Shown piece by piece: positions 13,857-30,046 of a DNA stretch of 64,000 nucleotides; the first letter of the stretch is position 1, and each line of letters begins with the position of its first letter. The stretch is from Spongiibacter nanhainus (GTDB lineage: Bacteria > Pseudomonadota > Gammaproteobacteria > Pseudomonadales > Spongiibacteraceae): contig NZ_CP066167.1 in NCBI RefSeq assembly GCF_016132545.1, positions 2,879,001-2,943,000 on the forward strand. The letters are read 5' to 3'. A program made the position numbers and the translations under genes. The notes beneath the pieces are model-generated. The model was given only the letters and a program-made list of their open reading frames with translations, was not told the DNA's origin and did not search any database.

Positions 13857-14702
13857 ATGGACCAAGCATTGGTATTACAGCATCTGGAAGACGGAGTTCT
13901 CACTCTGACCCTCAACCGGCCAGACAAACTAAACGCTCTCAATCCGCCGATGATGCGTCAGCTCACCGAGGCCATGAGCGACGCCGCCAACAACCGGGAA
14001 GCACGCGTCGTTGTGATCACCGGCGCAGGCAAAGCCTTCTGCGCTGGCGGCGATATCGCGGGCAAACCGGAGAAAAAGGGCGAGTTGAGCCCCGAAGAGG
14101 AAGCCGCCGCCGCCGAGCGCCGGGCCAAACGCCCCCCCGACACCATCGTCAACCGGGTGAAGTGGCTGCGGGACAATATGGAAACCTCGCGCATTCTTTA
14201 CGACATGCCCAAGCCCACCATCGCCATGATTCGTGGTGCTACGGTCAGCGTCGGCATGGCCCTGGCCGGGGCCTGTGACTTTCGGGTGGCCAGCAACAAG
14301 GCCATCTTTATTACCTCCTTTATCAAGGCGGGCCTGTCCGGTGACTACGGTGCCAGCTTCTTTCTGACGCGTCTGCTGGGCAGCGCCAAAGCCAGGGAAC
14401 TGATGTACCTGTCGGATAAGGTCGGCGCCGATGAAGCCCTGCGCATTGGCCTGATCAACCAGTTGGTGGACGACAGTGAACTGGAGAGCGCCACCATGAC
14501 CCTAGCCCAGCGCCTCGCCAAAGCACCGCCGATTACCCTGGAGTTGATGAAGCGCAATATGAACGCTGCCGTTGATGCCAGCCTCAGCGAGCAATTGGAT
14601 CGGGAGGCCAGCCATATGGTGATGTCCTCCATGACCGAAGACCACAAAGAGGCCATTCGCGCTTTTGCCGAAAAACGCGAGCCGGTTTTTACCGGTAAAT
14701 AA
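13857..14702 (+). CDS. Enoyl-CoA hydratase/isomerase family protein
   Basis: A 281-residue crotonase-fold protein. The oxyanion-hole segments FCAGGDIAG and GATVSVGMALAGACDF are clear. A glutamate of the usual LPE-type catalytic segment is not obvious: the region reads SFIKAGLSGDYG. It may therefore be an isomerase, hydrolase or other crotonase variant and not a simple hydratase. It carries an insertion rich in Glu and Ala around residues 72-90, longer than in typical family members. It begins 16 bases after the acyl-CoA synthetase with a good CGGAG leader, so it belongs to the same operon. Confidence 0.85.
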   Translation: MDQALVLQHLEDGVLTLTLNRPDKLNALNPPMMRQLTEAMSDAANNREARVVVITGAGKAFCAGGDIAGKPEKKGELSPEEEAAAAERRAKRPPDTIVNRVKWLRDNMETSRILYDMPKPTIAMIRGATVSVGMALAGACDFRVASNKAIFITSFIKAGLSGDYGASFFLTRLLGSAKARELMYLSDKVGADEALRIGLINQLVDDSELESATMTLAQRLAKAPPITLELMKRNMNAAVDASLSEQLDREASHMVMSSMTEDHKEAIRAFAEKREPVFTGK

Positions 14703-14733
14703 CGCAATACCGATTTTAATCTGGAGCCAGAAT

Positions 14734-16029
14734 ATGTCAGACGCAGACAACAAAAAGCCGATCAGCGAAGAGTTTGAAAGGGCCACCAATTATGAGCTGA
14801 CCGACCATGACATCGAGCGCGCACGCCTGCTGATCGGCATCGATTTGGCCTGCCGCGACAAAGAACAGATCACCACCATCAGTGAAGACAATATCCGCAC
14901 CTACGCCCAGGGCTGTGGCAGCGACAACCCACTGTTTGTCGATCCCGACTACGCCAGCAAAACCCGCTGGGGCGGCGTCTATGCACCACCGATTATATCT
15001 GGTTTTGTCAACAAGCCCCTGCTTGGCGACCCGATTCCGAAGGAAATCAAGGATCAAACCAAAAGCGTTTTTCGCGGTATTCACGCCTTTATTTCCGGCG
15101 GGGAGTGGAAGTTTTACAAACCCCTCTACCCCGGCGACAGCGTGTACAGCTTTTCCGGTGAAGTGGATCTGGAAGTCACGCCTTCCGAGTTTGCCGGGCG
15201 CAAGGTCACCCGTTTCAACCGTTCAGTGAAAATGAACCAGCGCGGCGAAGTGATAGCCGAATACACCTACCGCCTGATTCTGACCGAGCGTAAAAAGGCC
15301 AGGGAAAAAGGCAAGAACCTGAGCATCGAGCCGGCCAGCTATACCGATGAGGATATCGCCCGCATCGACGAGCTTTACGCCAACGACAACCCCCGTGGCC
15401 GCGAGAAGCTGTTCTTTGAAGACCTGGAAGTGGGCAGCATCCTGCCCGACTCCGTGCGCGGCCCCCTGACCGTCACCGACGTGGTCAACTTCCACGCCGC
15501 CGGTTATGGCTGGGTGCCCTATGGTCTGCGTACCGGTCGCATGTGGCACAAGAACCGCAAGCGCATTGCACCCTTCTACGTAAAAAACGAAATGGGCGTA
15601 CCCGATGTAGCCCAGCGCCTGCACTGGGACAGCAGCTGGGCACAGGCCATTGGCAACCCCCGCGCCTACGACTACGGCGTAATGCGCGAGCACTACCTCT
15701 ACCACTACCTCACCGAGTGGGTCGGCGACAACGGCTGGGTAGTGAGCATGTACGACGAAATTCGCAAGTTTAACTACATGGGCGACGTGCAGTTTGTGAA
15801 GGGCGAAGTGGTCGGCAAGCGCGAGGAAAATGGCCAGTACCTTGTTGACCTGAAGGTACAGATGATCAACCAGCGCGACGAAGAAACCGTCCGCTGCACC
15901 GCCACCATCGCGCTGCCCAGCAAGAAGGGGGGCGCAGTCCTGCTGCCCCAGGCCGACGAAGCCACTCAGCGCAAGGCCATTGAAATGCTGGCCCGTCACG
16001 GCGAGCTGCTGGCCGAGAAACAGGGCTAA
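14734..16029 (+). CDS. MaoC-like double-hotdog acyl dehydratase
   Basis: A 431-residue protein with a MaoC_dehydrat_N-type hotdog domain in the N-terminal half (SEDNIRTYAQGCGSDNPLFV) and a second hotdog fold in the C-terminal half (FFEDLEVGSILP, then DVVNFHAAGYG). Double-hotdog enoyl-CoA hydratases hydrate branched or bulky enoyl-CoAs that crotonases cannot take, for example ChsH1-ChsH2 in the cholesterol side-chain pathway. The ATG at 14734 is chosen over an upstream open stretch because CTGGAG precedes it and the upstream residues overlap the crotonase gene. Its neighbours, an ACAD pair and an Ltp2/DUF35 aldolase pair, fit a dehydrogenation, hydration and retro-aldol sequence. Confidence 0.82.
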   Translation: MSDADNKKPISEEFERATNYELTDHDIERARLLIGIDLACRDKEQITTISEDNIRTYAQGCGSDNPLFVDPDYASKTRWGGVYAPPIISGFVNKPLLGDPIPKEIKDQTKSVFRGIHAFISGGEWKFYKPLYPGDSVYSFSGEVDLEVTPSEFAGRKVTRFNRSVKMNQRGEVIAEYTYRLILTERKKAREKGKNLSIEPASYTDEDIARIDELYANDNPRGREKLFFEDLEVGSILPDSVRGPLTVTDVVNFHAAGYGWVPYGLRTGRMWHKNRKRIAPFYVKNEMGVPDVAQRLHWDSSWAQAIGNPRAYDYGVMREHYLYHYLTEWVGDNGWVVSMYDEIRKFNYMGDVQFVKGEVVGKREENGQYLVDLKVQMINQRDEETVRCTATIALPSKKGGAVLLPQADEATQRKAIEMLARHGELLAEKQG

Positions 16030-16055: not shown

Positions 16056-17249
16056 GTGGACCTGAAATATAACGCCACCTATGAAGCCTTCCGGCAGGAA
16101 GTGATCAGCTTCCTCGACGTGCACTGGCCTGCACCGGACAGTGCTGGCGAGTCCCGCGCCGAGAAAGAGGCCTGGTTTCGCAAGCAGGCGATCGCTGCGG
16201 GCTACCTGTATCGCGGCGTTCCCCGGGAGTTCGGCGGTTCCGAACAGGAAGCCGACATTCTCAAGGCCACGATTATTCGTGACGAGTTCGGCAAGCGCCG
16301 CGCGCCGATGGAGGCCCCCGGCATCGGCAATATGATGCTGGTACCCACCCTGCTGGAGTGCGGCACTCAGGAGCAGAAAGAACGCTTTATTCCCAAGACT
16401 CTCACTGGTGAATACCACTGGGCGCAGGGCTACTCCGAACCCAATGCCGGTTCTGACCTCGCCGCCCTGCGCACCCGCGCCGAGCTGGTCGAAGGGGAGA
16501 ACGGCATGGAATGGTCGATTAATGGTCAGAAAATCTGGTCGACCCTCGCCCAGTTCGCCCAGTATATGTTTGTGCTGGCCCGCACCGAGCCAGAGGCTGG
16601 CAAGCATGCGGGGATTTCCTACCTGCTGATCGACCTGAAAAACCCCGGCATCACTATTCGCCCCATCAAACAGGTCACCGGCGGCAAGGAGTTCTGCGAA
16701 GTCTTTTTTGACGATGCCCGTACCCCCGCAGACTGGATTGTCGGCGAGCGCGGCGAAGGCTGGACCGTGTCCAAGGCCACCCTCGCCCATGAGCGCAGCT
16801 CCATCGGCGGCGCCCAAACGGCGGTCGGTCTGTTCGAGAAACTGATCGAGCTGGCCAAGGGCGTTCAGTATCAGGGCGTCACTGCCATCGAGCACCCCCA
16901 GATTCGCGAACGCTTAGTGATTCTGGAAGGCTATGTGCAGTCCCACCTCTATTCCAGCTATCGGCAATTGTCGATGGCTGCCGCCAAGCAAAATGCCGGT
17001 CGCATCGGCCTGATGAACAAGCTGATCAACACCAATATCGGCCATATGGTGGCGGATATTGCCAAAGACCTGATCAACGATGCCGCCCTGCTGATGCCAC
17101 CGACCCGTGGCCGCGCTGAGGGCGACGAGAAATGGCTGAATCAGTTTTTCGGCTCCCTCGGCGTCGCCATTGCCGGGGGCACCTCCAACATTCAGCGCAA
17201 TATTATTGCGGAGCGGGGCTTTGGCTTGCCCCGCGACGACGCGGAGTAA
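16056..17249 (+). CDS. Acyl-CoA dehydrogenase, subunit A of pair 1
   Basis: A 397-residue flavoprotein dehydrogenase, starting at GTG with GGGAG upstream. The FAD/substrate motifs YSEPNAGSDLAALRTRA and the C-terminal IAGGTSNIQRNIIAERGFGLP are typical of ACADs. The residue that is glutamate in classical enzymes (Y-E-G-T) is Gly here, which is common in subunits of heteromeric ACADs from steroid and terpenoid pathways. Only 6 bases separate it from the next ACAD gene, so the two probably form one alpha2beta2-type enzyme. It would introduce the alpha,beta double bond into the acyl-CoA. Confidence 0.9.
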   Translation: MDLKYNATYEAFRQEVISFLDVHWPAPDSAGESRAEKEAWFRKQAIAAGYLYRGVPREFGGSEQEADILKATIIRDEFGKRRAPMEAPGIGNMMLVPTLLECGTQEQKERFIPKTLTGEYHWAQGYSEPNAGSDLAALRTRAELVEGENGMEWSINGQKIWSTLAQFAQYMFVLARTEPEAGKHAGISYLLIDLKNPGITIRPIKQVTGGKEFCEVFFDDARTPADWIVGERGEGWTVSKATLAHERSSIGGAQTAVGLFEKLIELAKGVQYQGVTAIEHPQIRERLVILEGYVQSHLYSSYRQLSMAAAKQNAGRIGLMNKLINTNIGHMVADIAKDLINDAALLMPPTRGRAEGDEKWLNQFFGSLGVAIAGGTSNIQRNIIAERGFGLPRDDAE

Positions 17250-17255
17250 AGTGGT

Positions 17256-18332
17256 ATGGAGTTTTTGCTCTCAGAAGAACAACTGGAAATTCAGGATACG
17301 GTGCGGCGTTTTCTCGACAAAAACTGCCCCTCTACCCGCCTTCACGAATACTTCGACAGTCCAGAGCAACTGCCCGAAGCGATCTGGCAGGGGCTGGTTG
17401 AAATGGGCGTTCCGGCACTGATCGTCCCGGAAGCCTTCGGCGGATTGGGTATGGAGCTGTTGGATCTGGCCATTATTGCCGAGGTACTCGGACAGGCCGC
17501 CGCACCCAACCCGCTGCTCGCTCACACTCTGGCGACGCAAGCCATCATCCACGCTGGCAACGATGCCCAGCGCGAAACCTGGCTGCCCAAACTGGCCAGC
17601 GGCACGTGCCTTGCCAGCTTTGCCGCCGCGGAAACCGGCGGAGACTGGCTGACACCCGCGATGAGTTTGAAAGACGGTTTGTTACAGGGCGAAAAGCAAC
17701 ACGTTTGCCACGCCCAACACGCCGACCTGATCGTGGTGGCGCTGGCCAACAATCACTATGCACTTATCGAAAAAGACGCCTCCGGCCTGAGCATAATCCC
17801 CGAAGACGTCGCCGATCGCACCCGTCCGATGGCGAGCCTTAGCCTTGATAACTGCCCCGCCGAACTCCTATCCAACAGCAGTGAATCCAGCGCAGAAAAG
17901 GTATTGAATACCGCACTGGTGCTGCTGGCCGCCGACTGCTTCGGCGGCGCGGCGCAATGTATTGAAATGGCCGTGGACTACGCCAAAACTCGGGAGCAGT
18001 TCGGCCAGGTCATTGGCAAGTTCCAGGCGATCAAGCACCAGCTCGCCAATATGGCGGTGGATGTGGAGCCCATGCGCGGCCTGTATTGGCACGCCGCCTA
18101 TGCCTTCGACCACGAGCCCGGCGCGGCAAGCCGTCAGGCTGCATTGGCCAAGGGCCATCTCAGCGACCGCTTCCTCCACGTGGCACGGGAAACGGTGCAG
18201 GCCCACGGCGGCATCGGCTACACCTGGGAGTGCGATGCACAGATCTATATTAAACGGGCATTGTTTAACTACGCCTATATGGGCAATGCGGGCCTTCACC
18301 GGAAGCGGGTCGCTGAGCTGGCCGACTGGTAG
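17256..18332 (+). CDS. Acyl-CoA dehydrogenase, subunit B of pair 1
   Basis: A 358-residue ACAD of the shorter type found as partner subunits. The N-terminal helical domain (FLLSEEQLEIQDTVRRFLDK) and the C-terminal HGGIGYTWECDAQIYIKRA motif are present; the middle domain is more diverged (LASFAAAETGGDWLTPAM) than in the gene before it. The glutamate of GYTWE is a plausible catalytic base that the partner lacks. Tight spacing with 16056-17249 supports a heteromeric complex. The electron acceptor would be an ETF, not encoded here. Confidence 0.87.
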   Translation: MEFLLSEEQLEIQDTVRRFLDKNCPSTRLHEYFDSPEQLPEAIWQGLVEMGVPALIVPEAFGGLGMELLDLAIIAEVLGQAAAPNPLLAHTLATQAIIHAGNDAQRETWLPKLASGTCLASFAAAETGGDWLTPAMSLKDGLLQGEKQHVCHAQHADLIVVALANNHYALIEKDASGLSIIPEDVADRTRPMASLSLDNCPAELLSNSSESSAEKVLNTALVLLAADCFGGAAQCIEMAVDYAKTREQFGQVIGKFQAIKHQLANMAVDVEPMRGLYWHAAYAFDHEPGAASRQAALAKGHLSDRFLHVARETVQAHGGIGYTWECDAQIYIKRALFNYAYMGNAGLHRKRVAELADW

Positions 18333-18385
18333 TACCGATATATTGATAACAGGGCGCGCAGCGCACCTGAGTGGAGACAACAACG

Positions 18386-19354
18386 ATGAAAACACGCGTT
18401 ACTGAATTACTCGGCACCCGCTACCCCATTATTCAGGGCGGCATGCAGTGGGTGGGCCGCGCCGAGCTGGCCTCAGCGGTTTCCAATGCGGGCGGCCTGG
18501 GCATTCTCACCGGCCTGACCCAGCCCACCCCCGAGGACCTTGCCAAGGAAATCCAGCGTTGTGGGGAGATGACCGACAAACCCTTCGGCGTCAATATGAC
18601 GGTCTTCCCCACCATCAAACCGCCCCCCTACGCCGAATATATCGACGTGATCATCAGCAATGGCATCAAGATAGTGGAAACCGCTGGTCCCGGCGCGGTG
18701 GAATTTATGCCGAAAATGAAAGGAGCCGGCATCAAGATCATCCACAAATGTGTGGCGGTGCGCCACGCATTGACCGCACAGGGCCTGGGTGTGGACGCCA
18801 TCAGCATCGACGGTTTTGAGTGCGCTGGCCACCCCGGTGAAGAGGACATTCCCGGCATGGTATTGATCCCGCTGGCAGCGCGGGCGCTGAATATTCCGGT
18901 GATTGCCTCCGGCGGTATCGGCAGCGGTCGCGGCATGGCCGGCGCACTAGCCCTTGGCGCCGAGGGGATCAATATGGGTACCCGCTTCTGCGCCACTAAA
19001 GAGGCCCCGCTCCACGACAACATCAAGCAAGCTCTGGTCAGTGCGAAGGAGCAGGACACCAACCTGATTTTCCGCACTCTGAAGAATACCGCCCGGGTGC
19101 TGAAGAACGATATTTCCAATCAGGTAGTGGAAATCGAAGGCCGCCCCGGCAAGACCGATTTCGCCGATCTACGCGACTTGGTCGCCGGCGTGCGAGGCCG
19201 CGCCGCCCTGGAAGCCGGTGAAGTGAATGACGGCATTATCACCGCTGGTATGGTCGTCGGCCTAGTCGACAGCATTCCCAGCTGTGCCGAATTGATTGAG
19301 GACATTGTCGCCGAGTGCAAACGCGAACTGGCCCGAGCCAATAGTTATATGTAA
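18386..19354 (+). CDS. Nitronate monooxygenase-like FMN flavoprotein
   Basis: A 322-residue TIM-barrel flavoprotein of the 2-nitropropane dioxygenase/FabK-like family: PIIQGGMQWVG at the N-terminus, the GFECAGHPGEED loop with the family His, and the phosphate-binding ASGGIGSGRGMAGALALGAEG. In catabolic operons such proteins more likely act as enoyl reductases or general flavin oxidoreductases than on nitronates, so the family name should not be taken as function. The ATG at 18386 is preferred to the GTG at 18371, because the GTGGAG overlapping that GTG serves well as its ribosome site. A second, distinct paralogue is at 49443. Confidence 0.85.
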   Translation: MKTRVTELLGTRYPIIQGGMQWVGRAELASAVSNAGGLGILTGLTQPTPEDLAKEIQRCGEMTDKPFGVNMTVFPTIKPPPYAEYIDVIISNGIKIVETAGPGAVEFMPKMKGAGIKIIHKCVAVRHALTAQGLGVDAISIDGFECAGHPGEEDIPGMVLIPLAARALNIPVIASGGIGSGRGMAGALALGAEGINMGTRFCATKEAPLHDNIKQALVSAKEQDTNLIFRTLKNTARVLKNDISNQVVEIEGRPGKTDFADLRDLVAGVRGRAALEAGEVNDGIITAGMVVGLVDSIPSCAELIEDIVAECKRELARANSYM

Positions 19355-19411: not shown

Positions 19412-20578
19412 ATGAAAATAGCCAAACAGGCAGCAGTTGTCGGTATAGGATCTACACCCTACTACCGTCGCGGCGAGTCTCACCCCCAGACATTTAATGA
19501 AATGATCTGCAAGGCCGTTATCGCCGCCACCGAAGATGCTGGTCTATCAATAAAAGACATCGACGGCTTTTCCTATTACTCCTCCGGCACCGATACCCCG
19601 CTGTTGATGGAGTCGCTGGGCATTCCTGAAGTGCGCTACTCCTCCATGGTCACCAGCGGTGGCGGCGGCAGTGTGGGCGCGGTACAAAATGCGGCGATGG
19701 CGATTGCCACCGGCGCCGCCAACGTCGTCGTAGTGCCCTTTTGCATGCAGCAGCCCATGGGCAAGCGCTATGGCTCCATCATGTCCCAAATTGACCCAAC
19801 ACCAGACAAGGCCTTTTTTATGGCCGGCGGGCTGGTAGGGCCGGGGCACTTCTTTGCCATGTTGGCCAAGCGTCATATGCACCAGTACGGCACCCGCCGG
19901 GAAGCCTTCTGTGAAGTGGCTATATCGACTCGCGAAAATGCGATCACTCGCCCCCAGGCGCGCTTTCGAACGCCATTAACCAAAGAAGAATACTTTGCCG
20001 GCCCGATGATTGCCGACCCGCTATGTCGCTACGATTTCTGTCTGGAAAATGACATCGCTGGCGCCCTGATTTTAACCAGCGCCGAACGCGCCAAAGACCT
20101 CAAGCAACGCCCCGCCTATGTGCTCAATGGCGAACAGGGTGGCCGCCGAGAATGGGGCCGGGCCATTGCCTGGATGAATATGCCCGACGAGTATTTCGCC
20201 TCGGCGGGCTACGCCAGCATTGCCGAGCACCTCTATGGCGATGCTGGTATCACCGCTGCCGATGTCGATGTCGCCCTGCTCTACGACCACTTTTCTCCCA
20301 TGGTGGTGATGCAGCTCGAGGATTTCGGGTTCTGCAAACGCGGCGAAGGCGGCGCCTTTGTCGAAGACGGCAACATTCGCTTTAAGGGCGGTAGCATTCC
20401 GGTTAACCCCCATGGTGGCAACCTGTCTGAAGCCTACGCTGTGGGCATCACCCATATGATGGAAGCCGTTGAACAGATTCGTGGCACCGCTATCAATCAG
20501 GTGAAGGATGCAGAAATCGCCCTGGTCACCGGCGGCCCCGCCTCACTGCCCATCAGCGGCCTGCTGCTGTCACGCTAA
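19412..20578 (+). CDS. Ltp2-like thiolase-fold aldolase (SCP-x family)
   Basis: A 388-residue thiolase-superfamily protein of the lipid-transfer/SCP-x branch. The usual nucleophilic Cys position reads TSGGGGSVGA, so it cannot be a normal thiolase. Tyr291 (LLYDHFSP) and Tyr342 (NLSEAYAVG) lie close to the positions of the two catalytic tyrosines I recall for the steroid retro-aldolase Ltp2, which also lacks the cysteine. The next gene encodes a DUF35 protein, the obligate partner type in Ltp2 complexes. The pair is therefore inferred to cleave a beta-hydroxyacyl-CoA with a tertiary hydroxyl, yielding a ketone and a short acyl-CoA. The product identity is unknown. Confidence 0.82.
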   Translation: MKIAKQAAVVGIGSTPYYRRGESHPQTFNEMICKAVIAATEDAGLSIKDIDGFSYYSSGTDTPLLMESLGIPEVRYSSMVTSGGGGSVGAVQNAAMAIATGAANVVVVPFCMQQPMGKRYGSIMSQIDPTPDKAFFMAGGLVGPGHFFAMLAKRHMHQYGTRREAFCEVAISTRENAITRPQARFRTPLTKEEYFAGPMIADPLCRYDFCLENDIAGALILTSAERAKDLKQRPAYVLNGEQGGRREWGRAIAWMNMPDEYFASAGYASIAEHLYGDAGITAADVDVALLYDHFSPMVVMQLEDFGFCKRGEGGAFVEDGNIRFKGGSIPVNPHGGNLSEAYAVGITHMMEAVEQIRGTAINQVKDAEIALVTGGPASLPISGLLLSR

Positions 20579-20588
20579 GGAGAACATC

Positions 20589-21032
20589 ATGAGTGAAATC
20601 GAGATCGCCAAAGCGCCGCCCGATGAACTGTTCCAGCTGGAAACAGACACCTGGACCGAACCCTATTGGAATGGCTGCAAAGACCACATACTGAAGCTGC
20701 CCAAATGCGGGGACTGCCAGCACTACGTGGAGCTGGGCGCCTCCCACTGCCGTCACTGTCTATCCCAGAATATTGAGTGGGTCGAACACAGCGGCAAAGG
20801 CAAGGTGTATTCCTTTACTATCGTTCGTTTCCCTGTGATTCCTTCACTGCAGGGCTCGGTGCCCTATGTACCTGCAGTTATTGAACTTGAGGGTGTCGAC
20901 GGTTTGCGATTGATTTCAAATGTTATCGATACACCATTATCAGATATTGATGTCGGCAGCGAGGTCTGTGTGCACTGGCACGACCGGAACGATGGCGTTT
21001 CGCTACCGCGTTTTAAACTAATCAAACCTTGA
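20589..21032 (+). CDS. DUF35 zinc-ribbon/OB-fold protein, partner of the aldolase
   Basis: A 147-residue protein with an N-terminal helix, a four-cysteine zinc ribbon (Cys40, Cys43, Cys54, Cys57) and a C-terminal OB fold (GKGKVYSFTIVRFP onward). DUF35 domains bind acyl-CoA and complete the active sites of Ltp-type aldolases and hydratases. The ATG at 20589 follows AAGGAGAACATC, only 10 bases after the aldolase stop, pointing to stoichiometric co-expression. The reading frame extends further upstream into the aldolase gene but without family similarity. Confidence 0.88.
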   Translation: MSEIEIAKAPPDELFQLETDTWTEPYWNGCKDHILKLPKCGDCQHYVELGASHCRHCLSQNIEWVEHSGKGKVYSFTIVRFPVIPSLQGSVPYVPAVIELEGVDGLRLISNVIDTPLSDIDVGSEVCVHWHDRNDGVSLPRFKLIKP

Positions 21033-21065: not shown

Positions 21066-22376
21066 ATGACTGTAAAAGATGACCGCTATCTTGATCCCGC
21101 CGTGGAAACCATGTCCCGGGAAGATCTGGAGCGCCTCCAAGAATCTCGTATCCTGCAGCTGGTGCCTTACGTTTACCAGCGCTCGCCACTGGTTCGGGAA
21201 CTGTGGGAAAAACACGGCGTCACCCCGGACGACATCAAATCCCTGGCCGACTTCAAGGCCAAGGTCCCTTTTATGGACAAGGATATGATCCGGGATTTCC
21301 GCGACCGCAATGATGATCCCTTTGGTGGTCTGGCCTGTGTAGGGCCACCGCATATGCGCGGCGTCGGCTTTACATCCGGTACCACTGGCGACCCGACGCC
21401 GTTGCCCCGGCCTGAAGACAACGCTGTGCTGATCGCGCTAAAGCGCGAACTCTGGCATATAGGCATGCGCCCCGGCGATACCCTCACCTATTTGCTGTTC
21501 ACCTTCCGTGAAGGCATGATCGCCGATCGCTGGATGGATACCGGCTTTACCCCCATCTGTGTGCAGCACTCACCGCTGGATATTCCCTATCTGATCCAGA
21601 TATCCAAGGAGTATCGTCCCAAGGCGCTGTTTATGATTTCCACGCCGATGATTCTGGGGCTGGAACAGTACGAGAAAAACACCGGCGAAGATATTAAGGC
21701 GGCTTTTTCCTCCTATGAAGGCATTGTTTTCGGCGGCGAACCGATGAGCCCTCATATTCGCAAATTAATGGAACGCTGGGATTTCAACGTGTATGAGTTG
21801 ACCTCGCTGGGCGATGTGGCCACCGCCACTGAATGCAGCGCCCACGATGGCATGCACACCTGGGAAGACGTCGCCCTGATTGAACACCTGGACCCGGACG
21901 GTGACAGCGACGCCGAGGATGGCGGCCGCGGCGAAATGGTGGTCACTGCCCTGCTAGACGACGTGGCACCGCTGATCCGCTTCCGCACCGACGACCTGAT
22001 CGAGTTTACCCGCAAGCCCTGTACCTGCGGACGCACCCACGGCCGCATGAAGCCCCTTGGTCGCAAGGGCGACGAATTGGTGGTGAACGGCAGATCTGTG
22101 CTGCCCATCGATATCTTCCCCTTTATCGGCGACTTCCCGGAAACCCGCACCGGCCTGTTCCAGATCATCCGGCCCCAGCGAGAAACCGACATCCTGAAGC
22201 TGCGAGTGGGCTACGACATTGATGCCCTCCAGGATGGCGAAAACGCGCTTATCGAACGCATCAAAGCCCGGATTAAATCGGAACTGGATTTACCCTCCGA
22301 CATCGAGCTGATGACCAATGACGAGATGGTCAAACTTGGACCTCCCAATAAAATTCCACGGGTGAGCAAATCATGA
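21066..22376 (+). CDS. PaaK-like AMP-dependent CoA ligase
   Basis: A 436-residue phenylacetate-CoA ligase-type adenylating enzyme, of the usual PaaK length. The P-loop reads GFTSGTTGDPTP near 97-108, the RFRTDDL motif follows later, then a CTCGRTHGR zinc-like segment typical of PaaK, and the C-terminal lysine region GPPNKIPRVSK. It should activate an aromatic, cyclic or short branched acid. It overlaps the next gene by ATGA, which implies translational coupling. It could also act on a ring-derived acid released by the aldolase step; that is inference. Confidence 0.85.
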   Translation: MTVKDDRYLDPAVETMSREDLERLQESRILQLVPYVYQRSPLVRELWEKHGVTPDDIKSLADFKAKVPFMDKDMIRDFRDRNDDPFGGLACVGPPHMRGVGFTSGTTGDPTPLPRPEDNAVLIALKRELWHIGMRPGDTLTYLLFTFREGMIADRWMDTGFTPICVQHSPLDIPYLIQISKEYRPKALFMISTPMILGLEQYEKNTGEDIKAAFSSYEGIVFGGEPMSPHIRKLMERWDFNVYELTSLGDVATATECSAHDGMHTWEDVALIEHLDPDGDSDAEDGGRGEMVVTALLDDVAPLIRFRTDDLIEFTRKPCTCGRTHGRMKPLGRKGDELVVNGRSVLPIDIFPFIGDFPETRTGLFQIIRPQRETDILKLRVGYDIDALQDGENALIERIKARIKSELDLPSDIELMTNDEMVKLGPPNKIPRVSKS

Positions 22377-23068
22377 CTGAGACCAGCCTTCACAAAACCA
22401 CCATGCTGCCATTGACCGTTGGGCGCTTTCGCAATACCGACGGTGGCTTCACCACACTGCCCTTCTCACTGGTGGAGCAAGACCGTGCCCGACGCTATGC
22501 CTTGCGAGTATTGAATACTTTTCACTTTCGCACCGGCAGCAATATTCTGCTCACCACCACCTTTGATGAAACTCTGCAGTTCATGCCCTTCGAGCGAGCG
22601 GTGATGACCTACGGCATGGTGGCGGTGTCCGCCGACTCCACCCCCTGGGATGCCAAGCGGGTGGAATCTATCGTCCGCCGCTTTAATCTGACCGCCGCTG
22701 CGGGAATCTGCAAAAACGTGGTCGACGGTCTCAGCCAACTGGGCTTTAAGGCCGAGGAATTGTTTGCAGGCATTCCAGTGTGGGCCCGGCAGGACACCTA
22801 CGATAGCCTCAAGGCCTTTCCCGATATGCGTGTCTACCGCTATTTGGAAGCGGGTCCATTGGTGGGTTTTGAGTGCAGTCAGGGCAATGGCGTGCACATT
22901 GACCGTTTCGAATGGGATATCGACGAGGTCGATGGCGAGATTGTGGTCAGCAGCCGCTTGCCCCGCTGCACCGAGTTCAGCCAATTTCACACCGGACTGA
23001 AGGGCCGCATCGACAGAAGCGCCTGCAATTGCGGCAACACCGATCCGCGCATCCTTCCCGATCAGTGA
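22373..23068 (+). CDS. Short protein resembling a degenerate PaaK-like adenylating enzyme
   Basis: A 231-residue protein without a family I can name confidently. The middle (SIVRRFNLTAAAGICKNVVD) and the C-terminal CNCGNTDPRIL resemble the PaaK fold, including its cysteine-rich segment, but the whole P-loop (TSGTTG-type) and the C-terminal lysine subdomain are missing. It starts within the stop of the intact PaaK-like gene (4-base overlap), so the two are translationally coupled and may form a complex. It could be a regulatory or scaffold paralogue, or a non-adenylating acyltransferase. The reading frame is clean and not an obvious fragment. Confidence 0.5.
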   Translation: MTETSLHKTTMLPLTVGRFRNTDGGFTTLPFSLVEQDRARRYALRVLNTFHFRTGSNILLTTTFDETLQFMPFERAVMTYGMVAVSADSTPWDAKRVESIVRRFNLTAAAGICKNVVDGLSQLGFKAEELFAGIPVWARQDTYDSLKAFPDMRVYRYLEAGPLVGFECSQGNGVHIDRFEWDIDEVDGEIVVSSRLPRCTEFSQFHTGLKGRIDRSACNCGNTDPRILPDQ

Positions 23069-23102
23069 TAGCCGACAGCCCGACGACAGGAGCACCGCAT
23101 TT

Positions 23103-24650
23103 ATGACCCTCGGTCACCCCGCCTACCAGCAGATCCGCATGCACGGCCTTGGCGATGTGCTGCGAGAGCATACCCGCTCCCGGCCAACGATGACCGCCGT
23201 GGTCGATGGCGAGCATCGCCTGAGCTGGCCCGAGCTGGATCAGCGGGTCAATCAGTTGGCCCAGTATTTTCTCGCCAATAAGCTGGATGAGGAGGGTCGC
23301 ATCCTGTGGCTGGGCCAGAACTCCTTCCGTTTATTGGAGTGCATCCTGGCCTCCGCCAAAATCGGTGCCATGGTTTGCCCCATCAACTGGCGCATGAGCG
23401 CGGCGGAAATCGGCAGCGTGATTGAGGACTTCACTCCCCAACTGGTGGTCTGGCAACAGCGGGACCTGGGTGACACCGCCGAACAGGTCCGGGCAGCGGC
23501 CCGGCACCATTGCCAATGGATTGCCCATGATGGCAATGATGACGCCAGCTACGAGAGCCTCATTGCCGGGCAGAAGCCAGTGGACCCCGAGCTGGCCATC
23601 CACAGCGACACCCCGGTAGTGGCCATGTATACCGCTGCCTTTGATGGCAAACCCAACGCGGCTCTGCTGTCCCAGTCAGCCATGCTCTACCAGAGCCTGA
23701 TGATCGCCTACGGTTATAGCATCACCGATCAATCCAGCAATCTGAATTCAGGGCCTCTATTCCATCTCGGCACCATGTTGGCGACCTTTGCCACCTTTAC
23801 CTTTGGCGGCAAAAATGTGTTTATCGCCCGGGTCGATGCCGAGCAAATGCTCAAGCTGATCGAGGCAGAACGCGTGTCCCACGCCTTTGTCGCCCAACCG
23901 ACACTGCTACAGATTCGAGAGATCAACAAAGACGGCAAATACGACACCAGCAGTCTGTGGTCCAGCGCCGATGCCCCGGAGTGGACCAGCCCCCTGTGCA
24001 TGCCCAAGGACTCCCCCTTTGCCCTACAGGCCAGGGTCTACGGCCAGACCGAGGTAATGGGCTTTACCACCTTTGGCTTCCTAGGTGGTGGCGGCGCTGG
24101 TCGCGTCTCGCCCTTGGCCCAGTTGCGGATTGTCGATGCCCAGGGCAACGAAGTGCCCCCCGGCGAAAGCGGCGAAATTGAAGTGCGGGGCGTTCAGGTG
24201 ATGAACGGCTACTACCATCGGGATGACGAAAACCAGCGTAGGTATCACGACGGCTGGCACCGCACCCGTGACCTGGGCAAGCGCCTGGAAGACGGTTCGG
24301 TGGCCTTTGTCGGCCCCAAAACCACCATGATCAAATCCGGTGTAGAGAATATCTACCCCGCCGAGGTTGAAGGCTGTATTCGCCAGCACCCCGCTGTGGC
24401 TCAGGTCTGCGTGATCGGCGTCCCCGACCCGAAATGGGAGCAGAATGTCAAAGCCCTGGTGGTGCTGAAACCCGACACAGAACTGACTGCGGATGACGTG
24501 ATAGAGCATTGCCGTCAGCAAATAGCCTCTTACAAAAAACCCAAAATCGTCGAATTCGTTAGCGAGATACCCTGCTTACCCGACGGCCAGCCCGACCGCA
24601 AAAAGGCGGACGAGCTGTTCGGCGGTGGCGGCTATCCCGTAAGCGGCTGA
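23103..24650 (+). CDS. AMP-binding acyl-CoA synthetase with altered P-loop
   Basis: A 515-residue ANL-family protein. The C-terminal two thirds are standard: VYGQTEVMGF, a GWHRTRDLGK hinge segment, GPKTTMIKSGVENIYPAEVE and a DRKKADELF lysine region. The nucleotide P-loop, however, reads YTAAFDGKPNAA where YTSGTTGKPK is expected, so the Thr/Ser-rich turn is lost. Similar variants exist in actinobacterial and proteobacterial FadD-like proteins and may still work, so inactivity is not assumed. An AGGAG leader supports the start. It is the third ligase-type gene of this operon, which suggests that several acids of one pathway are activated in turn. Confidence 0.82.
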   Translation: MTLGHPAYQQIRMHGLGDVLREHTRSRPTMTAVVDGEHRLSWPELDQRVNQLAQYFLANKLDEEGRILWLGQNSFRLLECILASAKIGAMVCPINWRMSAAEIGSVIEDFTPQLVVWQQRDLGDTAEQVRAAARHHCQWIAHDGNDDASYESLIAGQKPVDPELAIHSDTPVVAMYTAAFDGKPNAALLSQSAMLYQSLMIAYGYSITDQSSNLNSGPLFHLGTMLATFATFTFGGKNVFIARVDAEQMLKLIEAERVSHAFVAQPTLLQIREINKDGKYDTSSLWSSADAPEWTSPLCMPKDSPFALQARVYGQTEVMGFTTFGFLGGGGAGRVSPLAQLRIVDAQGNEVPPGESGEIEVRGVQVMNGYYHRDDENQRRYHDGWHRTRDLGKRLEDGSVAFVGPKTTMIKSGVENIYPAEVEGCIRQHPAVAQVCVIGVPDPKWEQNVKALVVLKPDTELTADDVIEHCRQQIASYKKPKIVEFVSEIPCLPDGQPDRKKADELFGGGGYPVSG

Positions 24651-24662
24651 GGAGAACACACG

Positions 24663-24989
24663 ATGGCCTGTTGCATTTTTGCCGCAATGATCATCAGCAA
24701 TGTGCTGGTGCACTGGCGACGCCTGAAGGCCTTTTTTGGTTATCAGACTGGTGAGAACCCCGGGGTAGTCAGCGTTGAGGGTGTAGCGCGTAAAAATATG
24801 TCACTACGCTACCGCCTTCGTCGTGGCGCGCTTCCCGCTCTGTTGATTCTGGGCACTGTGGGTTACGGCGCCATGCATTGGCAACATATGAGCCACGAAT
24901 TAGGGCTGGGCAAACCCCAGGTGGTTGCCGCCGCTACCCCTATTGATGCCGCTTTTTTCCAGGGCGCCTACGACTTTATCTGTAACTGA
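24663..24989 (+). CDS. Small membrane protein of unknown function
   Basis: A 108-residue protein not recognised. It has a short hydrophobic stretch at residues 1-15 and a clearer membrane segment at about 56-71 (GALPALLILGTVGYGA) flanked by arginines (RYRLRRG), then a short tail. The start follows GAGGAG closely. It lies 12 bases after the acyl-CoA synthetase and 38 bases before the membrane-anchored LDI-family gene, so it may be an accessory or anchoring subunit of that enzyme. That partnership is inferred from position alone. Confidence 0.6.
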   Translation: MACCIFAAMIISNVLVHWRRLKAFFGYQTGENPGVVSVEGVARKNMSLRYRLRRGALPALLILGTVGYGAMHWQHMSHELGLGKPQVVAAATPIDAAFFQGAYDFICN

Positions 24990-25027: not shown

Positions 25028-26941
25028 ATGGAACAGGCCATTGCCAACATCGAACAGGACCCCCGATTCAATCGCGATGTCAGCGCCGGACCCTTGTCCC
25101 AAAGCCGACTGAAGCGTACCAAGCTGTTTTTCCTGACCATGGCAATGGTCGGCCTGCTGCCCACCCTCTTTGGTTTGTCTCCGGCCCTACAAAGCGCCGG
25201 CCTCGGCCTGCTGTGGCCGGGCGGGGGCTTTGCCGCCCTGGGCGGCTGGGCGCTGTTGATGATCCCGGTGTTCTACGCCCTCTACTGGGTCACCCTGGTG
25301 GTCTGGTTTGGCAGCGGCAATATTCTCGCGCCCATTTTGCTCTGGGTACTGGGCGCCATCATCCCCGCGGCCCTGATCGGCGATACAGGTCCCTGGCCCT
25401 ACGCTCCCTACCTGGTGCTGGCGCTGGTAGCCATTAGAGAAGGACGCGATGTTCTCAAAAACCGCAAGCAATTACGTGAAGCCATTGAGCGTCGGGAAAA
25501 ACGCAAAACCTACCTCGCCAGAGCCATTAAAAATGTTGACAAGCGCGCCGTCGCCGAACCCAGCCCGGGCAGCAGGGAATTAAATGAAAAGCAGCTCGCC
25601 TCCGCTCGTTATCTGTTTGACCGAGCCCTTCAGCCTATCGGCGAATATGTGGGATACAACAAAATAGATCAGTTCCAGACCTCGGCCCTACGCTATCAAT
25701 TCAATACTGTTGGCTACGGCCTTGCGGAAATGCAGTGCCACTACACGCCTAACTTTCACGGCTACCTTAATGACGCTCAACAACGCTTAATTGAGCAGAT
25801 GCTTCAACGGCCGATCTGGGGCTACTGGCCACTAGAAAATATGTGGGGAAATCTCAACTTTAACTTCGACCCCTGCGCCAAAGACAACATCATGTTAACC
25901 GGCTTTTTTGGATTACAGATATGTCAGTACATGTCTAATACTGGCGACCGCCGCTATGCAGAACCAGGGTCACTGACGTTTGTATACAATGCCAAAAAGG
26001 TCTACAAGCACGACATTCACAGCATGATCGGCTCAATAGTCAAAAACCAAAATGAGCAGGCGTTTTGTCTTTATCCCTGTGAACCAAACTGGGTTTATAC
26101 TCCGTGCAACTTCATGGGAATGAAAGCACTCGCCCTATACGACAGGTTGTTTGGGACCAGTCACTTTAAAGATATATATCCCCGCTTCATTGAGAAGCTC
26201 GACGCTGAGTTTACTCAGGCAGACGGCAGCGTAATTGCATTACGCTCCAACCTGACTGGCTTCGCTGTACCCTTCCCCTTTGCCGATGATGGCCGCGCCC
26301 TATATTTCAATCCTATTAATCACGAGCGAGCCAAGGAATCCTGGGCCCTCGCGCGCGAAGAACTTTTTTACGAGGAAAACGGCGAACTAAAAATCAAACT
26401 CGAAGGCGCTGGGGTAGATATGGGCAATTACAGCAAGGGGCAACAAGCCAATATCCAAAACCTCATTTCTGCCGCACGAGAGTTTGGCGACGCCGAAGCC
26501 GCGCAGGCTGCCGAGTCTCTGATGGATGAAATGTACCCTCCGCGTATTGAAAACGGAACAGCGATTTACCCCGGATCCTGTTCTACCAATACCACTCTTG
26601 CCCGCGCGCTGATGCTAGGCACCAATGACTATCGTAATTCCATTTTGAAAGGCCCGCCAGCATCAGCTTTGCAGGGCCCGATTTTAAGTGGCATCCACTA
26701 TCCTCAGGTGCTGGTAGCCAAGGCATTTAGCCACACCGGCAAGGATCTGGAACTGGTGCTTTACCCTGGCCAGGACTACACGGAGCCAACGTTGACCATT
26801 GAGCGTCTGGCCCCGGAAAGCAGCTACAAGGTGAATATCGACGGCGCTGACACTGGGCTGCAAGCCAATGCCCAGGGTGTGGCCAAGCTCGATATCAAGC
26901 TGACGGCCCGCGCGCATATCACCCTGACGCCAACCGTTTAA
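25028..26941 (+). CDS. Membrane-anchored linalool dehydratase/isomerase (LDI) family protein
   Basis: A 637-residue protein: about four hydrophobic segments (about 33-50, 66-93, 97-116, 121-136), a basic linker (137-175), an LDI-like (alpha/alpha) domain from about 190, and a small beta-rich C-terminus. Against the Castellaniella Ldi sequence as I remember it, these segments align: YNKID (Asp214, like the Ldi Asp39 region), RPIWGYW, DNIMLTG, NTGDRRY and CEPNWVYTPCN, which keeps the two active-site cysteines (Cys351, Cys360) at the same spacing, followed by YDRLFGT. The Ldi active-site His appears to be Phe293 here. Ldi is periplasmic and about 400 residues long; this protein is far longer, and the positive linker suggests a cytoplasmic domain. 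It likely handles a tertiary allylic alcohol or alkene; the substrate is unknown. Confidence 0.82.
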   Translation: MEQAIANIEQDPRFNRDVSAGPLSQSRLKRTKLFFLTMAMVGLLPTLFGLSPALQSAGLGLLWPGGGFAALGGWALLMIPVFYALYWVTLVVWFGSGNILAPILLWVLGAIIPAALIGDTGPWPYAPYLVLALVAIREGRDVLKNRKQLREAIERREKRKTYLARAIKNVDKRAVAEPSPGSRELNEKQLASARYLFDRALQPIGEYVGYNKIDQFQTSALRYQFNTVGYGLAEMQCHYTPNFHGYLNDAQQRLIEQMLQRPIWGYWPLENMWGNLNFNFDPCAKDNIMLTGFFGLQICQYMSNTGDRRYAEPGSLTFVYNAKKVYKHDIHSMIGSIVKNQNEQAFCLYPCEPNWVYTPCNFMGMKALALYDRLFGTSHFKDIYPRFIEKLDAEFTQADGSVIALRSNLTGFAVPFPFADDGRALYFNPINHERAKESWALAREELFYEENGELKIKLEGAGVDMGNYSKGQQANIQNLISAAREFGDAEAAQAAESLMDEMYPPRIENGTAIYPGSCSTNTTLARALMLGTNDYRNSILKGPPASALQGPILSGIHYPQVLVAKAFSHTGKDLELVLYPGQDYTEPTLTIERLAPESSYKVNIDGADTGLQANAQGVAKLDIKLTARAHITLTPTV

Positions 26942-27016: not shown

Positions 27017-28363
27017 ATGACAAGCGCTACCGACCGCTATCAGGAAATCTACCTTGCCCAGAAGGCCAATCTTGCCACCCTGAAAAGCACCCGCGCTGAA
27101 AAGCGCATTGCAAAACTGCAAAAGCTGCGGGACGCCGTGGTGAGCCATGCCGACGACATCGGCAACGCTCAGCACGCCGATATGCGCAAGATGCCCTTGG
27201 GTATCCAGACCATAGAGGTGGCCGCTGCGCTGCAGGATATAGATGACGCCATTGCCGGGCTCCAAGACTGGATGCAGGCCGAAGTCTATGAGCCCTCACC
27301 AGAAAACGCGGGCAACCAAACTTACGTTCAGTACGAACCCAAGGGCGTGGTATTGCTGTTTGGTCCCTGGAATTTCCCCTTCCATCTGGTGGTTGCGCCG
27401 CTGGTACCCATTATCGCCGCCGGTAACAGTTGCATCGTCAAGCCCAATGAAATGGCCCCCCATACCAGCGCCATCCTCGCCAAACTGCTGGGCGAGGTGT
27501 TTCCCACCAATGAAGTCGCAGTGGTTGAAGGTGGGGTACCGGTGGCCAATGCCCTGCTGGAGTTGCCAGTGGACCATATCTTTTTTACCGGCAGTCCCAA
27601 TATCGGCAAGGTGATCATGGCGGCCGCCGCCAAGCACCTGGCCAGTGTTACCCTCGAGCTTGGGGGCAAGTGCCCGGTAATTATCGACGAAAGCGCCGAT
27701 CTGAAAGCGGTGATCGGCGGCATCACTCGGGCACGTTTTTTTAATGCCGGTCAGCTCTGCCTGTCCACCGACCATATCTGGCTGAAGGCCAGTCAGCGGG
27801 ACGCCTTTGTCGCCGGACTCGGCGCTGCCATTGAGCAGGCTTTCTACAAGGACGGTGAACTAAACACCTTCCTTATGTCGCGCATTGTCGACAAGGCCAA
27901 CTTCCAGCGCCTGAAGGGCTACGTCGACGACGCCCTTGCAAAAGGCGCAACAATCGCCGTTGGCGGCGCAATGAACGAAGACGACTTGACCATTGAGCCG
28001 ATGGTGCTTATTGATGTGCCGCTGGATGCCGAGATCATGCAACATGAAATATTTGGCCCCATTTTGCCGGTGCTCTGCTACGAGAATCCGAAGGAAATCC
28101 AGCAGCTTATCCATCAATCCGGCAAACCTCTGGCCATGTATCTGTTCAGCCAGAACCAGTCCTTTATCGACGACATGCTGCTCAACACCAGCTCGGGCGG
28201 GGTCACGGTCAATGGCGTGATGAGTCGCGCGGGGGAGCGTCGCCTGCCCTTCGGCGGCGCCAACAGCAGCGGTATTGGTCGCTACAAGGGCGTCCACGGA
28301 TTCCGTGAACTGTCCAATGCCCGGGCCATGTTTGTCCATAGAGCCGAGTCATACGGCCGTTGA
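27017..28363 (+). CDS. Aldehyde dehydrogenase (class 3-like)
   Basis: A 448-residue NAD(P)-dependent aldehyde dehydrogenase of the short class 3 type. FGPWNFPFHL near 115-124, the general base Glu214 (TLELGGK) and the nucleophile Cys248 (NAGQLCLS) are all present. It differs clearly from the paralogue at 8135. Its position directly after the LDI-family gene parallels the geraniol/geranial oxidation steps that follow Ldi in the known monoterpene pathway of Castellaniella, so an unsaturated aldehyde is a reasonable guess for the substrate. That is inference from context. Confidence 0.87.
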   Translation: MTSATDRYQEIYLAQKANLATLKSTRAEKRIAKLQKLRDAVVSHADDIGNAQHADMRKMPLGIQTIEVAAALQDIDDAIAGLQDWMQAEVYEPSPENAGNQTYVQYEPKGVVLLFGPWNFPFHLVVAPLVPIIAAGNSCIVKPNEMAPHTSAILAKLLGEVFPTNEVAVVEGGVPVANALLELPVDHIFFTGSPNIGKVIMAAAAKHLASVTLELGGKCPVIIDESADLKAVIGGITRARFFNAGQLCLSTDHIWLKASQRDAFVAGLGAAIEQAFYKDGELNTFLMSRIVDKANFQRLKGYVDDALAKGATIAVGGAMNEDDLTIEPMVLIDVPLDAEIMQHEIFGPILPVLCYENPKEIQQLIHQSGKPLAMYLFSQNQSFIDDMLLNTSSGGVTVNGVMSRAGERRLPFGGANSSGIGRYKGVHGFRELSNARAMFVHRAESYGR

Positions 28364-28400: not shown

Positions 28401-29207
28401 ATGATTGATAGAATTGACGCCCACTTTATCGACGAAGACAAAACCGACACCGGCCTTGCCCGGCGCATGATCGATCTCAAGCGCTGGGACGCGCACACCG
28501 TGGTCGGCTGGCTGGAGGATGACTTCCACCACTTCGGCGTCACCCTGGAGCACAGTGGCGAGCTGATTACCGGGGTGTCCGCCACCGCCCAGCGCTACCC
28601 CTGGGCCACCTGCGCCTTTGCCCCTGAGGCCCTGGCACCCCTGGTGGGCCAAAGCCTGCGACCTCGGAGTTCGGATATCGGCGCCTTGATCGAAATGCGC
28701 CAGCAGTGCACCCATATTTTTGACCTTGCCGGACTGACCATGGCCCATGCTGTGCGAGGAAGCTCTCACCGGCGCTATCAGACCATTACCGACAGCCGCA
28801 AAATCCTGGGTTGGAAAGACCATAAATCACCGCAATTTGGCCCCACCACCATTCGTCTATTGCTGGATAACCAAGAGGTCATGCAGTGGTATTGCGACAG
28901 CGGCACCATCCTCGACAGGGAAAGCGGTCATCAACAATCCCTGGGACGAGGCTTCCGGGAATGGACAGAATCCCTGCCCATCGACAAAGCCGAATACGCC
29001 ACCGTACTGCGGCGGGCGCTATTAGTATCAGGTGGTCGCTCTATGATCCATGACAACTACCCCAGCGCCGCCGCCATGGACCAACCGGAATTGTGTTATT
29101 CGTTTCAGGCCAGCCGCCGCGACACCGCATTGCGCATGCACGACACCACCAAAGATTACGCCGATCACCCCGAAGCGATGCTCGCTTTTGTCGACAAGCG
29201 CCCCTAG
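28401..29207 (+). CDS. DUF2889-type protein
   Basis: A 268-residue protein whose first half has the DUF2889 pattern as I know it: an ARRMIDLKRWDAHTVVGWLED start, DFHHFGVTLEHSGELI, then the conserved YPWATC. The second half (from about residue 125) is less familiar and contains the histidine-rich SSHRRYQTITD. The function of DUF2889 is unknown; it turns up beside P450 and terpenoid or lipid catabolic genes. The start lacks a strong ribosome site and a 5-codon frame (ATGGCTGACACATGA) overlaps it, so coupling from that mini-frame is possible. It is the last intact gene of the long plus-strand operon. Confidence 0.6.
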   Translation: MIDRIDAHFIDEDKTDTGLARRMIDLKRWDAHTVVGWLEDDFHHFGVTLEHSGELITGVSATAQRYPWATCAFAPEALAPLVGQSLRPRSSDIGALIEMRQQCTHIFDLAGLTMAHAVRGSSHRRYQTITDSRKILGWKDHKSPQFGPTTIRLLLDNQEVMQWYCDSGTILDRESGHQQSLGRGFREWTESLPIDKAEYATVLRRALLVSGGRSMIHDNYPSAAAMDQPELCYSFQASRRDTALRMHDTTKDYADHPEAMLAFVDKRP

Positions 29208-29233: not shown

Positions 29234-29617
29234 CTACTGGCTTTGGGAATCTATCCCGCAGATAGCGCAGTCAAGTACAAAGCTGGTCGGATCAAGCATC
29301 GGTACCGTGACCGATGAGGGGTAGATGCTATTTCGCTGCACAAGATAACTGCTGCCGACTAAATCAAGCACCATATCCACTGTTCGAAAAGCGAAGGGAA
29401 TATCCGACGTCGACACGGTTATTCGCAAACGTTCGCCTTCATTAATCTGCACGGCTGTAGGTCTTACTTCAATATCAAAACGGGCCACTTCATCTGGCAC
29501 TAATCGCTGAGCGCTGCTGGGAAAATACGGATGAAAGGCTTGAATCATCTGGCCGTTTTCGTCGTACCAACTAAACTCAGGATCAACTGCTCGCTGACTG
29601 CCAATCAAAGCACCGAT
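29234..29617 (-). pseudogene. CocE/NonD-type hydrolase, C-terminal fragment
   Basis: Only the C-terminal jelly-roll domain of an X-Pro dipeptidyl-peptidase-like (CocE/NonD) acyl hydrolase remains. It begins at about GALIGSQRAVDPEFS, continues through the GERLRITVSTSDIP strand region, and stops at 29234. The catalytic alpha/beta-hydrolase domain with its serine is missing. The similarity ends at about 29617, exactly where a fragment of an unrelated gene on the other strand begins. The frame runs on to 29749 but that part is antisense to the neighbouring fragment. It is a remnant of a deletion or recombination and is unlikely to be functional. Confidence 0.72.
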
Positions 29618-30046
29618 GGTAGTATTGACTACAAAGCGGGAGATATCTCTGCCAGCATCGCCAGACACCGCCCCAATAGGGTGGACGTGTACTACGACAA
29701 TGTCGGCGGCGCCATTCAACAAGCCGCTTTTGACGCCATGAACACCCACGGGCGCATCGCCCTATGCGGCATGGTGGGCCAGTACAGCGGCGAAGGCGAA
29801 GCGCCGGCCCCCAACCTGATGGCCGCCATTATCAAGCGCCTGAGCATTACGGGCTTTTTGGCCAATGACCATATCACCCTGTTCCCCGAGTTTCAGGCCT
29901 TCGCTCTGGATCTATATCAGCAGGGTAAATTGAAACACCAGGCCACCGTGACCAAAGGGATTGAAAACATCCATGAAACTATCAATTCACTGACCGGTGG
30001 GAAGAATATCGGCAAGCAGCTGTGTCAGATTGGTGATTTGGACTAG
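29618..30046 (+). pseudogene. MDR-family NADP-dependent oxidoreductase, C-terminal fragment
   Basis: The C-terminal half of a zinc-independent medium-chain reductase (leukotriene B4 dehydrogenase/YncB-like). From SIDYKAGDISASIA on it follows the family closely, with VDVYYDNVGG and the GRIALCGMVGQYS strand, and ends naturally near GKNIGKQLCQIG. The N-terminal substrate domain and the first part of the Rossmann fold, including its AATGAVG-type loop, are gone. The in-frame codons from 29531 to about 29617 are not family-like, because they are antisense to the CocE fragment. A truncated, probably inactive gene. Confidence 0.75.

Follow-up and report, generated by a model that had tools for sequence, protein, structure and literature searches.

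What is a membrane-anchored relative of linalool dehydratase/isomerase (Ldi) doing within an operon of coenzyme A (CoA)-dependent catabolism? The question is raised by a stretch of 64,000 nt of the Spongiibacter nanhainus chromosome (contig NZ_CP066167.1, positions 2,879,001 to 2,943,000), referred to here as the window. The list of open reading frames (ORFs) of the window contains an ATG-initiated frame of 637 aa on the plus strand, which is present as one copy in the 4.08 Mb single-contig genome. Its product is quite probably an allylic alcohol mutase of the linalool isomerase (Lis) type (EC 5.4.4.4), anchored in the membrane with its barrel facing the cytosol, that would convert a tertiary into a primary terpenoid alcohol whose degradation would then follow a CoA route. 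This reading is drawn from sequence comparison, and the evidence for it is set out below, together with the other readings that have to be weighed.

Family, fold and membrane anchor

The sole Pfam family found on the 637-aa protein is Ldi, PF18566, matched over residues 222-516 with an E value of 2.6e-85 and 287.2 bits against a cut-off of 26.1. Membership in this family, claimed in the original prediction, is thus confirmed by the profile; an NCBIfam scan assigned no family. The comparison of a predicted fold with that of Ldi, also proposed there, was made with an AlphaFold2 (AF2) model built from 43 sequences (pLDDT 92.5, pTM 0.91). The model has helices at residues 22-47, 52-62, 73-96, 100-116 and 126-173, followed by the barrel and by strands from residue 552 onward. 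Ldi chains take all of the first 27 places in a Foldseek search of the PDB (E 1.6e-11 to 2.0e-10, target TM 0.68-0.72, rmsd 6.4-7.2). Weaker matches follow; they include two groups of (alpha/alpha)-barrel enzymes, the unsaturated glucuronyl hydrolases and the GH76 enzymes. By profile and model together the protein is a member of the Ldi family with a predicted Ldi barrel fold.

Kyte-Doolittle hydropathy exceeds the threshold of 1.6 at residues 32-54 and 67-121. The fourth of the roughly four membrane segments first suggested, at about residues 122-140, falls below this threshold and is taken from the AF2 model only; the others appear both as hydropathy peaks and as AF2 helices. The linker is strongly basic, as had been noted, with 13 Lys and Arg in residues 141-180. 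There are six in residues 1-32 and none in the loops 53-69, 93-96 and 118-121. It should be noted that this charge distribution is the only basis for assigning sides of the membrane, and because of it both termini are placed in the cytosol and the Ldi-like domain on the cytosolic side, in agreement with the cytoplasmic domain originally proposed. Hydropathy, model and charge support a predicted arrangement of four N-terminal membrane helices with both ends of the chain cytosolic.

The same prediction held that no enzyme of this architecture had been characterised. This proved incorrect. Lis of Thauera linaloolentis 47Lol was published with assays in 2016 (PMC4791888). It is described as a protein of 644 aa with four predicted transmembrane domains within residues 1-139 and a cytoplasmic C-terminal Ldi-like domain. 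Its activity is located in the inner membrane and is activated by reductants. The paper also describes the isomerisation of geraniol and linalool, with both linalool enantiomers formed from geraniol, and isomerase-only activity is reported. The Thauera gene (ENO87364 in PMC4791888) was recovered here as locus L038, and its product is 42% identical to the window protein across residues 2-635 of the latter. By region, identities amount to 47/140 in residues 1-140, 14/45 in the linker, 170/365 in the barrel and 38/87 in the C-terminal part. Since Lis combines four membrane helices with a cytosolic Ldi-like domain, the architecture is not new. On this alignment the window gene is a further member of the Lis type, of a known architecture and in itself fairly ordinary.

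Genes of the Lis kind, the Thauera gene included, are present at 51 loci of the scanned genome collection, with Zhongshania and Spongiibacter among the hosts. Nearly all matches (47/51) start at query residue 22 or before and hence cover the anchor region. The closest named relatives are from Spongiibacter thalassae (L016, 80%) and a Zhongshania metagenome-assembled genome (L022, 79%). S. thalassae has, besides the L016 orthologue, a second locus (L055) with two Lis-like genes (4851-6764 and 9599-11779) close together on the same strand. Of 293 genomes sampled from the order, seven carry a gene of the Ldi family as a whole, as do six of 369 sampled from the class; the window genome is counted in each set, and both sets were drawn from larger groups. 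Several of these genes are not of the membrane-anchored type. Twelve plasmid records matched, the best at 31.7%, and three of them cover at least 80% of the query. The Lis kind itself has been characterised in one denitrifying Thauera.

Active-site residues and proposed reaction

Conservation was read from an alignment of 43 sequences, which comprises 41 of the 51 loci, the window protein and L003. The loci outside it are L022 (the same locus as L003), L024, L034, L039, L045, L047, L048, L052, L064 and L065. Relatives were collected with two peptide patterns, L[AG][EM][MV]QCHY and [KR]DN[IV]MLTG, and conservation of the pattern letters is therefore partly by construction; residue 293 lies directly after the second pattern and inside neither.

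Cys351 and Cys360 align with C171 and C180 of Ldi. The spacing is 9 in both proteins, as was claimed at the outset, and both cysteines are present in all 43 sequences, window protein included. Cysteine mutants of Ldi are named in passages of PMC6600392 and among the PDB matches. M125 of Ldi aligns with M289, and H129 with Phe293. The loss of the Ldi histidine, first seen as a feature of this one protein, turns out to be common to all aligned members: position 293 is aromatic throughout (Trp in 26, Phe in nine, Tyr in eight) and His in none. Thauera Lis has Trp at this position, and Glu at 198. The histidine is therefore also absent from an active enzyme, and this loss, seen in every aligned member, may be connected with the report that Lis has isomerase activity only.

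The acidic residue had probably been misassigned. Asp214 was put forward as the active-site aspartate of Ldi, Asp39. The joint MAFFT alignment places D39 on D198, and hhalign places it on A200, two residues off; neither gives D214, which in hhalign faces a gap beside Ldi H58. Position 198 is acidic in all 43 sequences (39 D, 4 E), and position 214 has 38 D, 4 E and 1 K. The equivalent of Asp39 is, on these alignments, probably Asp198. D39, Y45 and H129 are active-site residues of Ldi. Among the histidines, H238 was rejected as a substitute for the lost one, being His in 20/43 only. For H328, another candidate substitute and His in 42/43, the alignments disagree: it faces a gap in two of them and an Ldi histidine in hhalign.

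We infer the following reaction, substrate, catalytic roles and order of steps. The four N-terminal helices would anchor the enzyme in the inner membrane, with the (alpha/alpha)-barrel toward the cytosol. The substrate would be linalool or a larger terpenoid alcohol that is likewise tertiary and allylic; transfer of its hydroxyl to the primary position would give a geraniol-type alcohol. Acid-base catalysis may be provided by the two conserved cysteines and the acidic Asp198, with an aromatic residue in the place of the Ldi histidine, and would proceed by protonation, loss of water and its re-addition at the opposite terminus of the allyl system. The primary alcohol would then be oxidised by an alcohol dehydrogenase, for which a GeoA-like gene elsewhere in the genome is a candidate, and next by the adjoining GeoB-like aldehyde dehydrogenase (ALDH). 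A CoA ligase would activate the oxidised product, and either the adjacent operon or an Atu-like cluster at another site of the chromosome would break it down.

Operon, pathway and substrate

According to PMC4847356, lis of Thauera lies downstream of atuCFE, geoAB belong to the same atu region, and lis and geoA are 7617 bp apart. Carboxylase subunits stand upstream of lis in L038 and L032, matching the published Thauera order. In L032 a zinc-type alcohol dehydrogenase gene begins some 7.7 kb beyond lis, and the ALDH gene behind it is truncated by the end of the locus. The T. linaloolentis genome has a GeoA-like gene and an ALDH as a pair on one contig, this ALDH being 55% identical to that of the window at 27017. 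In L031 an ALDH 53% identical to the window ALDH lies directly after lis, the same order as in the window.

The GeoA-like gene of the window genome (48%) is at 165082-166164. Within the window itself, a 171-aa frame at 29531-30046 corresponds to just the C-terminal portion of a zinc-type dehydrogenase and seems to be a remnant; as a geraniol dehydrogenase it was rejected, GeoA-like queries matching it at chance level (E 0.18 or worse). The genome also carries a cluster that is liu-like (leucine/isovalerate) by gene order and two further carboxylase clusters, with an AtuA-family gene in each of the three. The carboxylase subunits of one of them, the Atu-like cluster L076, are 50-51% identical to those beside lis in Thauera.

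Several observations weigh against the proposed Lis-type reading. In L016 and L022 a DUF2889 gene comes straight after lis, and the window ALDH, missing there, is thus not a fixed part of the block. The closest ALDH in G023, a genome of the same genus, is at most 36% identical to that of the window, and the 58% homologue of S. thalassae lies elsewhere on the contig, not beside lis. The hydratase of the Atu-like cluster is only 26% like the hydratase upstream of lis in L032; it scores 143.8 against a cut-off of 426 bits for the NCBIfam family of gamma-carboxygeranoyl-CoA hydratase and is a poor AtuE match. Finally, a tree was built of 43 members and two soluble relatives, the latter having very long branches. 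The window protein is joined in it first by L003 and L016 (100/100) and next by L017 (99/100), in a sub-clade with Phe293, whereas Thauera Lis, with Trp, falls in another sub-clade of the same large clade; the substrate may therefore differ. An Atu-type route is open to S. nanhainus but is not certain.

The operon is the unusual part of the locus, the isomerase gene itself being of a known kind. Fifteen genes share one strand between 12327 and 29207; neighbours are separated by -71 to 75 bases, and the isomerase gene is the 13th (Table 1). The ligases, hydratases, acyl-CoA dehydrogenases, aldolase and DUF35 protein, and ALDH around it agree with the CoA-dependent catabolic operon, probably for a terpenoid, that was originally proposed. 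PDB entries 6ok1 and 6wy8 (Tcur3481), the best matches of two of the proteins, are both from steroid side-chain degradation systems. No Pfam, NCBIfam or PDB match was obtained for the 231-aa protein, whose C-terminal end resembles a PaaK-type adenylating enzyme by eye, and no Pfam family for the 108-aa protein.

Table 1. Features of the 12327-29207 gene run, with the parts of the isomerase
Feature	Coordinates	Strand	Remarks
Acyl-CoA ligase, first gene of block	12327..13841	+	
Enoyl-CoA hydratase/isomerase	13857..14702	+	
Double-hotdog MaoC/FAS1-type hydratase	14665..16029	+	weak family scores
Acyl-CoA dehydrogenase	16056..17249	+	
Acyl-CoA dehydrogenase, no middle domain found by Pfam	17256..18332	+	best PDB match 6wy8_A Tcur3481
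FabK/nitronate monooxygenase-like flavoprotein	18371..19354	+	
Ltp2-type thiolase-like protein, candidate retro-aldolase	19412..20578	+	best PDB match 6ok1_A 'Lipid-transfer protein', E 1.4e-75
DUF35 / ChsH2 C-terminal OB-fold protein, candidate aldolase partner	20508..21032	+	
PaaK-like adenylate-forming enzyme	21066..22376	+	scores under curated cut-offs
231-aa protein of no known family	22373..23068	+	
Acyl-CoA ligase (AMP-binding)	23103..24650	+	beside lis in L016, L017, L022 at 69-83%
108-aa protein just upstream of isomerase gene	24663..24989	+	hydrophobic stretch by eye; homologues in same place in L016, L017, L022
Lis/Ldi-family isomerase, membrane-anchored	25028..26941	+	637 aa; Pfam, AF2 model, charge counts
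Ldi Pfam domain PF18566	25691..26575	+	residues 222-516, with Cys351, Cys360, Phe293
Regions of isomerase protein			anchor ~1-140; basic linker ~141-180; Ldi-like barrel ~186-550; C-terminal beta domain ~551-637
GeoB-like aldehyde dehydrogenase, candidate geranial-type dehydrogenase	27017..28363	+	
DUF2889 protein	28401..29207	+	directly after lis in L016 and L022

Neighbouring genes were counted over the 51 loci; the flanks are often short (32/51 loci are at least 20 kb long) and the counts are raw, without a random-region control. In L016 and L022 all genes from the double-hotdog gene to lis are present in order, and the fetched flank ends at the double-hotdog gene. Before lis, L017 has the first ligase, both dehydrogenases, the PaaK-like gene, the 231-aa gene, the second ligase and the small gene, and its Ltp2/DUF35 genes lie on the opposite strand 5-7 kb after lis; its flanks contain no match to the double-hotdog or the enoyl-CoA hydratase gene. 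Within the fetched flanks of the other 48 loci no match above 40% identity was found to any gene of 12327-24989.

Also to be considered is an isomerase whose natural substrate is not linalool but another terpenoid, larger or cyclic, that ends in the same tertiary allylic alcohol group. In that case the operon would act by hydration and then cut off a C2 or C3 unit in a retro-aldol step, as happens to steroid side chains. This would narrow the Lis-type reading and is compatible with it, and we regard it tentatively, as possible but with the chances somewhat against it. The Ltp2-type aldolase gene adjoining its DUF35 partner, the double-hotdog hydratase and the acyl-CoA dehydrogenase pair point this way, as does the sub-clade separate from Thauera Lis. 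So does the distribution within the genus, where two of 12 sampled genomes have all three of lis, the 231-aa gene and the double-hotdog gene, and the other 10 have none of them. A P450 at 39743-40948 of the window, whose best PDB matches are of CYP101 type, e.g., camphor 5-monooxygenase and CYP101J2, supports a terpenoid catabolic region as well. However, the Atu-like cluster, with its AtuA-family gene and its carboxylase subunits, and the adjoining GeoB-like gene leave the plain linalool route equally open.

A rather unlikely extension is that the operon serves a route independent of the Atu pathway. Lis would yield the primary allylic alcohol, oxidation and CoA activation a beta-methyl enoyl-CoA, hydration by the double-hotdog protein a tertiary beta-hydroxyacyl-CoA, and Ltp2/DUF35 cleavage a methyl ketone and acetyl-CoA, bypassing the biotin-dependent geranyl-CoA carboxylase. 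No published description of a geranyl-CoA/methylheptenone route, or of Ldi with an aldolase and acyl-CoA dehydrogenase, was found in searches of a library of open-licence papers. A methyl-ketone intermediate would be consistent with the genes resembling Baeyer-Villiger monooxygenase (BVMO) that accompany lis in some other genomes. By tblastn, BVMO-like genes are near lis at 10 of the 51 loci, but not at any of the three that contain the Ltp2 block. A strict replacement of the Atu route by the operon is not tenable, given the Atu-like cluster elsewhere in the genome. The occurrence of lis with an Ltp2/DUF35 aldolase operon in a small group makes the possible Atu-independent terpenoid route directly testable.

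An activity like that of Castellaniella Ldi, i.e., a dehydratase/hydratase making or hydrating a myrcene-type alkene and not a pure isomerase, would agree with the shared Pfam family and fold and with the retention of both active-site cysteines, and is nevertheless improbable. MAFFT places Ldi Y45 on I204, C49 on V208 and C102 on Q260. No Cys is found in the window protein at either place aligned with the C49-C102 disulfide of Ldi, and the absence of the pair fits a cytosolic enzyme. Passages of PMC6600392 call a C48-C101 disulfide of Ldi essential, and we take this to be the same pair with the numbering one lower. A catalytically inactive membrane protein that retains the Ldi fold, to which the absence of the active-site histidine might point, is most improbable, as both cysteines and the acidic residue at 198 are kept in 43/43 and Lis, likewise without the histidine, is active according to passages of PMC4791888.

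Around lis at other loci, a P450 fused to a DUF3237 domain lies beside the DUF35/Ltp2 pair in L017 (19728-21488), about 8 kb from lis, and an alcohol dehydrogenase gene comes directly after lis in L028 and L029. A BVMO-like or flavin-containing monooxygenase (FMO)-like gene is less than 10 kb from lis in L019, L020, L028, L029, L041, L045, L047 and L065 (8/51, by clustering). Pseudomonas sp. GM21 (L044) carries, near lis, homologues of three genes in the left part of the window: a short-chain dehydrogenase/reductase (SDR) gene (289-1107; 55%), a P450 (1187-2398; 36%) and an ALDH (8135-9562; 57%). The set of genes that goes with lis may thus reach as far as the left end of the window. An ecdysteroid-kinase-like/APH-family kinase gene (2466-3638) is found there between P450 and SDR genes. 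At the right end is a phage-type integrase gene (61179-61949), and the catabolic region may have a mobile element nearby.

Comparison with known systems

Castellaniella defragrans Ldi (PDB 5g1u, 5hlr, 5i3t), the soluble bifunctional enzyme (EC 4.2.1.127), shares with the window protein the barrel fold, the cysteines C171/C180 (C351/C360), M125 (M289) and probably D39 (D198). Unlike the membrane-anchored window protein, Ldi is soluble, is periplasmic according to passages of PMC6600392, and has no membrane anchor. Its chain is shorter, and its alignment with the window protein extends no further than about residue 532 of the latter. In the window protein His129 and Tyr45 are replaced by Phe293 and Ile204, and C49 and C102 are not kept.

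The steroid side-chain retro-aldolase systems of the Ltp2/ChsH2 type resemble the window operon in their Ltp2-like thiolase-fold protein, DUF35 protein, double-hotdog hydratase and acyl-CoA dehydrogenase pair. The window operon differs in having a Lis-type isomerase and a DUF35 domain as a separate small protein, and its substrate need not be a steroid.

The closest likeness is to Lis of T. linaloolentis, at 644 against 637 aa, with a four-helix N-terminal anchor, a cytosolic Ldi-like barrel and a C-terminal extension, both cysteines, and an aromatic residue at the position of the Ldi histidine. Homologues of the geoB-like and atuC/atuF-like genes of that organism are also present in the S. 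nanhainus genome. The two proteins differ in sequence (42% identity) and in sub-clade, with Phe293 and Asp198 in the window protein where Lis has Trp and Glu. Their settings differ as well: Lis is encoded downstream of atuCFE, whereas the window gene stands in an operon of Ltp2, DUF35, double-hotdog and acyl-CoA dehydrogenase genes.
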